Shown in pieces: positions 42,015 to 60,154 of a stretch of 60,269 nucleotides of DNA. Positions within the stretch are counted from its first letter, which is position 1. Each line of letters starts with the position of its first letter. The notes beneath the pieces were generated by a model that searched no databases, was not told the origin of the DNA, and saw only the letters and a program-made list of their open reading frames with translations. The position numbers were made by a program, and so were the translations under genes. The stretch covers positions 246,015-306,283 of the forward strand of contig JBBDMM010000006.1 in NCBI GenBank assembly GCA_040878325.1. Reading direction: 5' to 3'. The DNA is from Acidimicrobiia bacterium (GTDB taxonomy: Bacteria; Actinomycetota; Acidimicrobiia; Spongiisociales; UBA11373).

Positions 42015-42287
42015 GTGTTGGACGTGGCGTCCGTTGATCGTTCCTGGCAGATGAAGGGGCTTTGCCGGGGCAATCATTCGTTTCTGTTCTTTCCACCGAG
42101 TCATGCAGAGCGCAAGGAGGAACGCGAGCGCCGCGAGCACAAGGCGAAGGCCATCTGCTCGGTGTGCCCGGTAGCCGAAGAGTGCCTCGACTTTGCGGTG
42201 GAGATTCGCGAGCCGTACGGGATCTGGGGCGGCTACACCGAGACCGAGCGTCGACACCTGGCTTCGAAGCGCGGCATCACCGTCTGA
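42015..42287 (+). CDS. WhiB-family Fe-S transcriptional regulator
   Basis: A 90-residue WhiB-like protein, a family restricted to Actinomycetota and their phages. Four cluster-binding Cys are present (GLC, then C-SVC and EEC with Cx2Cx5C spacing), as is the GIWGGYTETER turn, followed by a basic C-terminus for DNA contact. The start is GTG 42015 because GGGAGGAG lies 8 nt upstream; the frame is open further. Subclass not assigned. Its 3' end overlaps selB by 11 bp, tail to tail. Confidence 0.92.
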   Translation: MLDVASVDRSWQMKGLCRGNHSFLFFPPSHAERKEERERREHKAKAICSVCPVAEECLDFAVEIREPYGIWGGYTETERRHLASKRGITV

Positions 42288-44043
42288 CGACCCGCCCGTC
42301 GCCGACCCGACGGGTGACTCCGCGATCGTCGAGCCACTCGAGTAGGGGGATGGCGTGCTTGCGGGTGATCGCCATGATGTCGCGAAAGTCGCCCACCGTG
42401 AATCCGTCGGGGAGGGTGGCGACCGTTTCGAGGAGAGAATCGACCGTCTCGGGCAGGTAGGCGAACGGTCCGACCGGTATCAGGTCTCCGGACGCGATCA
42501 GGGCGCGCACAGCATCAGGGTGCAGGCCCAACTCATCGGCCCGGGGTGGTGCCGCGCCGGCGGCGTCGAGGTCGGCTCGGGCGCTTCCCCAGCCAGGATC
42601 GTCGGTCGCTGCCGCCGCCGGCCGATGGTCGGCGAGGCGCACCGCGGCGCCATCCACCACGACGCCGCCGACGGTGGCGATGATCGCGTCGAGGGTGTCG
42701 GCGCCGAGCCCCAGCTCACGGGCGAGCGTGGTGCGGGGCATCCCCGGCTTGAAGGGGTTGGCTTCGTGAAAGGTGCCGATCCGTTCGACGGCACGCTGTG
42801 AAATGGTGCGATTGGTTTCGGGCGAGACGGCCAGCTTGCCCGTGATCACGGCATCGTCTGGCGATCCTCCACCGGTGTCTGCGGCAAGATCGGACACCGC
42901 GGCGATCCCTCGCACCGCCAACAGGCGCGATGCCGCATCGTCGGGTGTCGTGGCGTGTTTGGCGAGATGACCCAGCGTGCTGCGCACCGCCCGAGTTCTT
43001 CCCGTCGGCCGCGGATCGAGCACCCGGCCGCCTCCGGTGACGGCGCCCCTGCCCACCTCACGCAGGATGTAGCGATCGCCCGCCCGCAGCGGAACCTCGC
43101 CGTCGAGGTCGACCAGCACGACCCCGTCGGCAATCGAACGGACGCGGGCCGGCCACGAACCGCTCCCCGCATGGAGGTGGAAGGAGCCCCGGTCCCCCCG
43201 GATCGGCTCGTGACCTCTCATCGGGTCGAGGGTTGCCACCAGCCGCCTCGTCGCTCGCCACTCACCCGGCCTGCCCAGCATCGTTCCCCGCTCGATGAGT
43301 GACCGATCGGCCCCCGACAAGTTGATCGCGGTGCGATTGCCCGGCCCTACCTCATCGACGGATCGTTCGTGCACCTGCAGGCCACGGACCCGCACCGGAG
43401 TCTCGCCCGGGTAAAGGGCGAGGGTGTCACCGACCTTGATCATCCCGTCCACCAGGGTGCCGGTGACCACGGTGCCCGCGCCCTCGACCGTGAAGGCGCG
43501 GTCGATCCAGAGGCGGGGACGATCGCGGTCCGGCGGTTCCAGCCCTGCGACCATCGTGGTCAGGGCGGCGCGGAGTCGATCGAGGCCAACGCCTGTTGGG
43601 GCTGCGGTGGGCACGATCTCCGAGCCCGCAAGCGTCGTGCCGTCGAGGCTCTCGGCCACCGCAACCGCCGCGAGCTCGAGGTGATCGGTATCGACCAGGT
43701 CGGCCCGGGTCAACGCGATCACTCCGGGGGAAGTGCCGAGCAGGTCGAGCACTCCCAGATGCTCCTCGGACTGAGGCTTCCATCCCTCGTCCGCGGCGAC
43801 GACGAACAGCGCCGCATCCGCCCCGTCGACGCCGGCGAGCATGTTCTTGATGAATCGCTCGTGCCCCGGGACATCGACGAACCCGACTTCTCTGTTGCCG
43901 AGCATGGCCCAGGCGAATCCCAGGTCGATGGTCAGCCCCCGCCGCTTCTCCTCCTCCCACCGGTCGGGGTCACGGCCGGTGAGTGCCCGGACAAGGGTCG
44001 ACTTGCCGTGATCGACATGGCCGGCGGTGGCGATCACCGGCAT
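42277..44043 (-). CDS. selB: Selenocysteine-specific elongation factor
   Basis: A 588-residue translational GTPase that carries Sec-tRNA(Sec) to UGA codons marked by a SECIS hairpin. G1 is [11 protein letters not shown], then the T-containing switch DLGFAW, G3 DVPGHERFI and G4 TRAD. EF-Tu-like domains II/III (about 170-335) and the C-terminal winged-helix repeats that bind the SECIS RNA follow. It overlaps selA by 10 bp. The local selenoprotein at 59475-59708 is a natural client. Confidence 0.95.
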
Positions 44044-45356
44044 GCGTTGGTCAGCGCAGCCGCCACCGATCCGTCATCCGCCTCGTCGACCGCGCGCAGA
44101 TCGAGCACCACCTGACCCGCTTCTCTACGGGCGACCACGGGGGGAACGGCGTCGAGAAGGCGTCGCCACCGCTGTTCGGCCCCCAGCACCGCGATGACCG
44201 GCGTGGGGATCCCCTTCCCGGGAACTGTGCCGGCGCCCGGGACCGACTCACCCTCGACCACGGCACCTTCGACGCCGGAGCGGGTGAGCACCTGGCTGCT
44301 GCGCGCTGCGAGGTCGGCGTACGGCGTCGATGCCATTCGCCAAAAGGGGATCTCGGACCCGCGACCGGAGGCGTACTTCTCGAAGGTGGCCGACAGGGCA
44401 GCAAGGGCAGGCCCACCTATACGGACCGCTCGAGCCACCGGATGACTGCGGAGTCGGGCGATGACGCCCGCCGAACCCACGACGATCCCGGCTTGTGGGC
44501 CCCCCAACAGCTTGTCGCCCGAGAAGAGCACGAGGTCGGCTCCGGCTTCGATCACCTGACGCGCCCCGGGCTCACCGGCAAGCCACGCCGGCGGAGGGCC
44601 GTCGAGCCAGGGCACCCGGGCGTCGAGCAGCCCGCTGCCGATGTCGGCCACGAGGGGCACATTGCGCTCGTGGGCTATGGCGGCGACCTCGGCGTAGCCG
44701 GTCTCTTCGGTGAATCCTTCGATGCGGTAGTTGGACGGATGCACCTTGAGCAGCGCGCCGGTGGCAGAGCCGATCGCCTTTGCGTAGTCCTTGGCCCGCG
44801 TGCGATTGGTGGTGCCGACCTCTGTGGCCTTGGCACCGGAGGCGGCGATCAACTCGGGGAGGCGGAAGGCGCCCCCGATCTCGATCTGCTCGCCCCGGGA
44901 GACGACGATCTCGCGACCGGCGCCGAGGGCGGCCATGGCCAGGAACAGCGCTCCGGCGTTGTTGTTCACGACGAGCGCGTCCTCGGCCGCGGTGAGGGTG
45001 GCCGCCAGACGTTCGACGTACTCGCCTCGTCCCCCGCGCTCGCCTGCGGCGAGGTCGAACTCGAGTGCCGAGAATCCGGCCCCAGCCTCGGTCGATGCGG
45101 CTACGGCGTCCGGGTGGAGTGTCGCCCGGCCGAGGTTGGTGTGGAGCAGCACACCAGTAGCGTTGATGACTCGACCAGGGCGGATGCGGAGGAGGCCGGC
45201 GGCGATTCGGCGGGCCTCGGCGAGGGGATCGATGTGCTCGTCGTGTCGCCAGGCCTCGACACCTGCCCGTGCCACTTCGATCAGGAGAGCACGGGGAAGC
45301 GCCCCATCGTCGATCGAGGCGGCCAATGCATCGACCGAGGGGGGACGCAGGGCCAT
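44034..45356 (-). CDS. selA: L-seryl-tRNA(Sec) selenium transferase
   Basis: A 440-residue PLP enzyme that turns Ser-tRNA(Sec) into Sec-tRNA(Sec) with selenophosphate. The PLP Lys is in LVLFSGDKLLGGPQAGI; NATGVLLHTNLGRA and VNNNAGALFLA are family motifs. TAGGCT lies 6 nt before ATG 45356 (MALRPPSVDAL), which I prefer to the GTG two codons upstream. It forms an operon with selB. No selD or tRNA-Sec gene was found in the window. Confidence 0.95.
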   Translation of the reverse strand: MALRPPSVDALAASIDDGALPRALLIEVARAGVEAWRHDEHIDPLAEARRIAAGLLRIRPGRVINATGVLLHTNLGRATLHPDAVAASTEAGAGFSALEFDLAAGERGGRGEYVERLAATLTAAEDALVVNNNAGALFLAMAALGAGREIVVSRGEQIEIGGAFRLPELIAASGAKATEVGTTNRTRAKDYAKAIGSATGALLKVHPSNYRIEGFTEETGYAEVAAIAHERNVPLVADIGSGLLDARVPWLDGPPPAWLAGEPGARQVIEAGADLVLFSGDKLLGGPQAGIVVGSAGVIARLRSHPVARAVRIGGPALAALSATFEKYASGRGSEIPFWRMASTPYADLAARSSQVLTRSGVEGAVVEGESVPGAGTVPGKGIPTPVIAVLGAEQRWRRLLDAVPPVVARREAGQVVLDLRAVDEADDGSVAAALTNACR

Positions 45357-45386
45357 AGGCACAGCCTACAAGCCGACCTATATTCG

Positions 45387-59003: not shown

Positions 59004-59414
59004 TCAGCCGTTCGACGCGATCCTCGTGGGCTCGACGATGATGGTGACCCGGACGTCGCCCGGCTGGAGCCACTCGTACTTTTCGACCCCGAGATACTTC
59101 TGAGCGAGCGCGTCTATGACGTCCACACCGTCGGAGGTCCTCATCTCGATGACCTGTCCCTGGATCGAGTAGTTCGCATACGGCTCGTCCGGCACACTGA
59201 TGGAGATCGCCACCCGCGGATCCACCTGCATGTTCCGCCACTTGCGACGACCCTCGGCCGTGTTGAACACGATGTGGTCGCCGTCGCGCATCACCCACAT
59301 CGCGCTCGCCTGGGGCGATCCGTCGGGGTCCAGCGTCACCAGATGGGCGAAGGTCGGCCCATCCAGAATGTCCTTGAGTCGCGTCGGGAGTTCCACCTTT
59401 GCCTTGTTCTTCAT
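59004..59414 (-). CDS. PPOX-class (F420/FMN) split-barrel protein
   Basis: A 136-residue split beta-barrel flavin- or F420-binding protein of the pyridoxamine-phosphate-oxidase-like class. LVTLDPDGSPQASAMWV and the RRKWRNMQVDPRVAISI cofactor-phosphate region are typical of actinobacterial F420-dependent members. Substrate unknown. TACAGT lies 6 nt before the ATG. It diverges from the selenoprotein gene with a 60-bp gap. Confidence 0.88.
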   Translation of the reverse strand: MKNKAKVELPTRLKDILDGPTFAHLVTLDPDGSPQASAMWVMRDGDHIVFNTAEGRRKWRNMQVDPRVAISISVPDEPYANYSIQGQVIEMRTSDGVDVIDALAQKYLGVEKYEWLQPGDVRVTIIVEPTRIASNG

Positions 59415-59474: not shown

Positions 59475-59708
59475 ATGGACCTTTCGATCGAGTACTGCGC
59501 CGTTTGAGGCTATCGGGACCGTGCCGTGCGCATGGTTGACCAACTGCTCGAGGAGTTCGAGCATGACATCGAGAACTTCACGCTCATCCCTTCCCGCGGA
59601 GGGGTCTTCGAGGTGACCGTCGACGGTGACCTGATCTACAGCAAGAAGGCGACCGGCGAGCACGCCGACTACGAGGACGTCGCTCCGCAGATTCGGTCGC
59701 GTAAGTGA
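59475..59708 (+). CDS. SelW/Rdx-family selenoprotein (in-frame UGA = Sec)
   Basis: A 77-residue thioredoxin-like Rdx protein, if TGA 59505-59507 is read as selenocysteine. The N-terminus is MDLSIEYCAVUGYRDRA, with a CxxU redox motif (Cys8, Sec11) at the position of CxxU in SelW. The rest, including GGVFEVTVDGDLIYSKK, aligns with the SelW core. Without readthrough only a 60-codon fragment from 59526 would be called. TAACCT lies 7 nt before the ATG. A SECIS-like hairpin follows the UGA, and selA/selB are in this window. The stop overlaps the next gene (GTGA). Role: probable thiol redox protein. Confidence 0.93.
59505..59538 (+). promoter_or_regulatory. Putative bacterial SECIS element
   Basis: Ten nt after the UGA, ACCGTGC (59518-59524) pairs with GCATGGT (59530-59536) around a 5-nt loop, CGTGC, that contains the expected GU. 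The loop lies about 18 nt from the UGA, within the 16-37 nt range described for bacterial SECIS hairpins. It lies inside the coding region and does not break the SelW reading frame. Confidence 0.75.
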
Positions 59709-60154
59709 CCCTCGCCGAGCGACTGGGCGCCCGCGTCGGAGAAGACCTCGGGGTCGGTGAGTGGATGGAGATCACCCAGGATCGGGTGGACCGGTTCGCC
59801 GACCTCACCGAGGATCATCAGTGGATCCACCAGGCGGGGGAGCGCGCCGCCGCAGGCCCTTTCGGCGGCCCGATCGCCCACGGGTTTTTGACGCTCTCCC
59901 TGCTCACCCCACTGTCGGGCCCGGTCACCCGGAGCCTCACCGAAGGCTCCCGCATGGTCATCAACTACGGATTCGACCGGGTGCGCTTTGTCTCCCCGGT
60001 GCCGGTGGGTGGCCGGATCCGGGCACGAGGAAGGCTCGCCGAGGTCACCCCGGTCGACGGCGGCGCCCAGGCCAAGACCGATCTCACCATCGAAGTCGAA
60101 GGCACCGACCGCCCCGCAGTAGTGGCGGAGCATTTGATTCGCGTATACGAGTAG
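59705..60154 (+). CDS. MaoC-family (R)-enoyl-CoA hydratase-like protein
   Basis: A 149-residue hot-dog-fold protein. The hydratase motif is visible: DLTEDHQWIHQ (catalytic Asp/His) and PIAHGFLTLSLL. The usual substrate is an enoyl thioester; the exact one is unknown. The GTG overlaps the selenoprotein stop by 4 bp, so its translation is probably coupled to successful UGA readthrough. Confidence 0.88.
   Translation: MTLAERLGARVGEDLGVGEWMEITQDRVDRFADLTEDHQWIHQAGERAAAGPFGGPIAHGFLTLSLLTPLSGPVTRSLTEGSRMVINYGFDRVRFVSPVPVGGRIRARGRLAEVTPVDGGAQAKTDLTIEVEGTDRPAVVAEHLIRVYE

Follow-up and report, generated by a model that had tools for sequence, protein, structure and literature searches.

The analyzed window, a stretch of 60,269 nt, belongs to a 2.2 Mb assembly (98.9% complete), and, of the named genomes, those closest to it are MAGs of Acidimicrobiia and other Actinomycetota. 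The window contains a short gene, rdx, with an in-frame TGA, as well as a divergent PPOX-class oxidoreductase gene on one side of it, a MaoC-like dehydratase gene on the other, and the selA and selB genes (Table 1). No second Rdx gene was found in the genome. Read through the UGA, rdx encodes the protein MDLSIEYCAVUGYRDRAVRMVDQLLEEFEHDIENFTLIPSRGGVFEVTVDGDLIYSKKATGEHADYEDVAPQIRSRK. The Rfam search of the window at the gathering threshold yielded three ordinary tRNAs and nothing else.

Table 1. Features of the rdx locus and Sec decoding genes in the window
Feature	Position	Strand	Remarks
rdx/selW-like selenoprotein CDS	59475..59708	+	77 residues, start ATG 59475, predicted Sec at residue 11, stop TGA 59706-59708
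In-frame UGA, predicted Sec	59505..59507	+	codon 11; CAVU motif, residues 8-11; TGA conserved in relatives
Bacterial SECIS hairpin	stem 59517-59524 / 59530-59537, loop CGUGC 59525-59529	+	supported by covariation and published bSECIS constraints
MaoC-like dehydratase gene	59705..60154	+	GTG start overlaps rdx stop by 4 nt (GTGA, 59705-59708)
F420-dependent PPOX-class oxidoreductase gene	59004-59414	-	TIGR03618; divergent from rdx
selA, L-seryl-tRNA(Sec) selenium transferase	44034..45362	-	TIGR00474, 1.2e-122
selB, Sec-specific elongation factor	42277..44043	-	TIGR00475, 6e-94

The PF10262 (Rdx) profile matches residues 3-74 of the 77-residue protein (E = 2e-21, 76.4 bits with the cut-off of 22.6). 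The protein also scores above the cut-offs of TIGR02174 for Rdx/SelW-like proteins (62 bits vs 34.2) and of the NCBIfam model CXXU_selWTH (4.8e-17), and it matches the SelTWH_Campy model with a score under that model's own cut-off. Judged by these comparisons, the match to the Rdx family is far beyond chance, with the TGA at the same position in relatives. The initial annotation had claimed that the frame from the ATG forms the CxxU site of SelW with the TGA at codon 11, and that the family continues in this frame after the UGA; both the CAVU motif and the extent of the PF10262 match confirm this, as does the search of the translation against the SelW/Rdx families that it had proposed.

According to the AlphaFold2 model (pLDDT 96.1, pTM 0.84), the protein is predicted to adopt the thioredoxin-like Rdx fold, with a strand at residues 2-8 and a helix at residues 14-28, the CAVU motif following the first beta strand. 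The best PDB matches of the model are bacterial Rdx proteins with TM about 0.9, namely 2fa8 (Foldseek E 6e-8, TM 0.92), 2obk, 2oka, 2p0g and 3dex, the latter being SAV_2001 of Streptomyces avermitilis; the same family and fold are shared with 2ojl. Mammalian selenoprotein W (mouse SelW, PDB 2npb), which also carries the CxxU site, has a similar thioredoxin-like fold (TMq 0.70) at about 26% identity. The location of the SECIS element is different, being the 3' UTR in the eukaryotic gene and the coding sequence itself here.

The in-frame TGA is conserved in relatives. The scan of one collection of 84,980 species genomes yielded 47 relatives with 32-88% identity, each of them with TGA at the CxxU site. 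They form a biased sample of Rdx, as searching with these query peptides gives preference to the "DGDLIYSK" type. They come from Actinomycetota, Chloroflexi, Planctomycetota, Gemmatimonadota, Acidobacteria and other groups; one MAG labelled as Acidobacteria (JACZWZ010000069.1; L015/L081) is probably mislabelled, as its Rdx protein is identical to that of G003, a genome from the window's own family. Within the same order, Rdx is present in 36 of 59 genomes. All 36 full-length hits (35 genomes) contain exactly one in-frame TGA, no other codon being seen at the CxxU site among them, and the only stop-free hit in the order is a contig-edge fragment lacking this site.

The distribution of TGA-containing Rdx was compared with that of the Sec machinery. 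In the order, selB is found above the cut-off in 33 of the 35 genomes with TGA-Rdx, and the remaining two have selA. When only genomes with completeness of 90% or more are considered, Rdx is missing from all five in which selB does not exceed the cut-off (Fisher p 0.009, without correction for kinship); in one of these five, G021, selB is split over two contigs. In the sample of 246 genomes of the phylum, 28 of the 32 genomes with TGA-Rdx have selB, compared to two of the nine with stop-free Rdx (p 4e-4, uncorrected). The residue at the site could be read in nine of ten stop-free hits, and it is Cys in all nine; Cys-Rdx in the wider phylum occurs mostly in genomes lacking selA/selB. In particular, six actinobacterial copies from large genomes without selA and selB have CxxC (YCT[QR]C[RK]W) in place of CxxU. 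The main discordance is formed by four fragmented assemblies from the wider phylum (G068, G127, G234, G298), with TGA-Rdx and neither selA nor selB.

A SECIS-like hairpin with GU in its loop had been predicted about 18 nt past the UGA, and a candidate was located at 59517-59537 (GACCGUGC-CGUGC-GCAUGGUU). It has an 8 bp stem and a 5-nt loop at nucleotides 18-22 after the UGA, with GU in loop positions 2-3, and its MFE, when folded in isolation, is -10.0 kcal/mol. Published constraints on bacterial SECIS elements are a loop of 3-9 nt, a stem of 4-16 bp, G in the first two loop positions, a distance of 16-37 nt from the UGA, and MFE of at most -7.5 (PMC13188914). The hairpin agrees with each of them, having G in loop position 2 and the loop start at nucleotide 18. 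Its folding energy is ordinary when compared to dinucleotide shuffles (z = -0.39) and synonymous-codon shuffles (p 0.46); as energy does not separate the hairpin from shuffled sequence, these tests are not counted as support, and the case is carried by covariation.

In the set of 33 sequences from the order and near it, 89.8% of stem cells are paired, compared to 83.8 +/- 0.9% with shuffled partners (0/500) and 19-46% when the stem is slid. Two synonymous positions, the third bases in codons 15 and 16, covary with the first positions of codons 21 and 20, respectively. Arg codon 16 has U in its third position (CGU; nucleotide 15 after the UGA) in 28/28 sequences with AUG as the partner codon 20, and C (CGC) in 10/10 sequences with G as the partner base. 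In 31 of the 33 sequences, nucleotide 12, in the third position of codon 15, pairs with nucleotide 28, the first base of codon 21, as C-G (26), U-A (4) or U-G (1). On the protein tree, many forks of which are unresolved, the paired double changes are placed on several different branches. Moreover, pS between the window and L013 is 0.11 in codons 12-28 vs 0.51 in codons 29-74, and 0.08 vs 0.54 for L014; the difference is smaller for L017, which is more distant (0.58 vs 0.72). Synonymous change is suppressed in the hairpin region, and sequence evolution gives strong evidence for the hairpin. It provides a clean, covariation-backed bacterial SECIS from a little-studied group of actinobacteria. 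A second hairpin register, with the loop start at nucleotides 22-23, is the best one in most relatives belonging to other phyla.

The decoding machinery is complete, with selA, selB, selC and selD all present in the genome. The presence of selA and selB in the window had been stated correctly; selC and selD, whose absence would have spoken against a selenoprotein, were both found outside it. The Rfam tRNA-Sec search was ambiguous, since long Ser and Leu tRNAs score too, and ARAGORN settled on a single tRNA-Sec with the UCA anticodon (L001). SelD (381 bits) is encoded by the minus-strand ORF 1402-2736 of L009 and has Cys in the catalytic position (SHGAGCACK).

These data allow one to weigh other readings of the interrupted frame. 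The initial annotation noted that the gene may be reported as a 60-codon ORF, and the corresponding start, GTG 59526, is indeed present. The frame is open past the UGA, and this shortened ORF is what a standard table 11 gene caller could report; if it were the real gene, the upstream CxxU segment would be untranslated. However, codons 1-11, comprising the first strand and CxxU, are conserved as protein, with only TGA at the site within the order and pN of 0.00-0.12 in codons 1-10 in comparisons with L012-L014, and the thioredoxin-like fold would lose its first strand and active site. Homologues do not start at 59526; the CxxU segment and its UGA are conserved in relatives. The shortened ORF, whose probability is very low, was rejected given the conservation of codons 1-11 and CxxU. 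Still less probable, and refuted by conservation, is the origin of the TGA by pseudogene decay or a sequencing error: this would explain the interrupted frame and nothing more, whereas the same TGA is observed in dozens of independently assembled genomes, with purifying selection downstream of it. Genome-wide reassignment of UGA to Trp, Gly or Cys, without any Sec, has an equally negligible probability. It would be consistent with one in-frame UGA, but TGA is the stop codon of five of the ten clear genes of the window that were checked (aspartokinase, selA, selB, PALP and PPOX), and of rdx too, and TGG codons occur in all ten, which argues against reassignment; as the tRNA-Sec with the UCA anticodon and the full Sec machinery are present as well, this reading was rejected.

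It is also conceivable, albeit improbable, that the UGA does encode Sec and the gene has a mainly regulatory role rather than a redox one, for example, selenium-dependent translational coupling to the overlapping MaoC-like gene. The overlap of the rdx stop with the MaoC start would fit this, as would the same gene order in L013, L014, L075 and L077. However, MaoC was not found beside rdx in the other relatives searched, the order rdx-MaoC being restricted to close relatives, and the conservation of CxxU and the Rdx fold across phyla implies that the protein has a function of its own. On the other side of rdx, the PPOX-class gene is located upstream in several relatives too.

Hence, with a probability of about 0.97, the gene encodes a SelW-like selenoprotein of the Rdx family, whose UGA codon 11 is decoded as Sec via the downstream SECIS; the initial prediction of a SelW-type selenoprotein was right and is strongly supported, with almost all independent tests in agreement. 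The annotation is thereby corrected for a gene that standard calling with table 11 would shorten or miss. Judging from SelW in general, a selenenylsulfide is expected to form within the CxxU pair, and the protein is expected to be a thiol-disulfide oxidoreductase. During translation, the hairpin just 3' of the UGA would recruit SelB with GTP and Sec-tRNA(Sec), so that the UGA would be read as selenocysteine and not as a stop. In the product, the Cys8-X-X-Sec11 redox pair would be located after the first strand and before the first helix, and this pair is expected to cycle between the selenol/thiol and selenenylsulfide states, with the protein probably acting as a small thiol-disulfide oxidoreductase on a putative partner. 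The overlapping MaoC-like gene is probably co-transcribed with rdx.

SelW-like proteins with Sec form an abundant bacterial family known since 2005-2006, with members in the Sargasso Sea and GOS selenoproteomes (PMC1088965, PMC1794560, PMC2398784). SelW-like CxxU selenoproteins with a bacterial SECIS have already been described (PMC1088965), few or no Cys homologues occur in Sec-using organisms (PMC1794560), and SelW-like proteins are, together with SelD, the most widespread marine selenoproteins (PMC2398784). The Sec form dominates over the Cys form, with 427 Sec vs 56 Cys proteins in GOS (PMC1088965, PMC1794560, PMC2398784). The gene at 59475-59708 is a new representative of these proteins (CxxU, PF10262), having the Rdx domain, CxxU and the SECIS just after the UGA in common with them; only the lineage differs, here a group of uncultured actinobacteria of the Acidimicrobiia type. 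In the 2006 survey, Symbiobacterium, as then classified, was the actinobacterium named as having a SelW-like protein (PMC1794560), and none of the papers searched combines selenoprotein, selenocysteine and Acidimicrobi-.

The selenoproteome of the genome was compiled from targeted searches, and hence the list is partial. An AhpC/TSA-type (Prx-like) gene has TGA at the redox site, RGDWUPYCNGQL (TGA at 1603 of L093; G000:C16:197114-197470). A TlpA/thioredoxin-like gene, also of the AhpC/TSA type, contains AEWUSVCRREL (TGA at 1603 of the reverse strand of L098; G000:C12:238290-238625, minus) and has, downstream of the UGA, the strong SECIS-like hairpin CGACGGG-AGCUC-CCCGUCG (-11.8 kcal/mol, loop start at nucleotide 17 after the UGA). 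These UxxC proteins are likely to be at least two further selenoproteins of the genome. The search for FdhA gave a single hit, a NuoG-like complex I subunit without internal TGA, so Sec-FdhA was not found, and neither was Sec-SelD, as SelD is of the Cys form; the selenoproteome therefore seems to lack both classic selenoproteins. Since FdhA or SelD selenoproteins have been stated to be present in every bacterial selenoproteome (PMC1794560), the genome appears, from these targeted searches, to be an exception to this rule.

We tentatively suggest, at slightly less than even odds, that Rdx in the order effectively has to be of the Sec type (all full-length copies contain TGA, and no Cys copy was seen), and that thiol-redox selenoproteins (Rdx, Prx-like, TlpA-like), not formate dehydrogenase or Sec-SelD, keep the selenocysteine machinery alive. 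If true, the generalisation of 2006 about FdhA and Sec-SelD would have an exception here. With its conserved Sec form, the order is well suited for studying the function of bacterial SelW-like proteins and the reasons why Sec has not given way to Cys. In one other actinobacterial genus, two genomes (G214 and G192; L105 and L106) have selA and selB, yet their Rdx is of the Cys type (YCASCGY), a possible case of a Sec-to-Cys or Cys-to-Sec switch.
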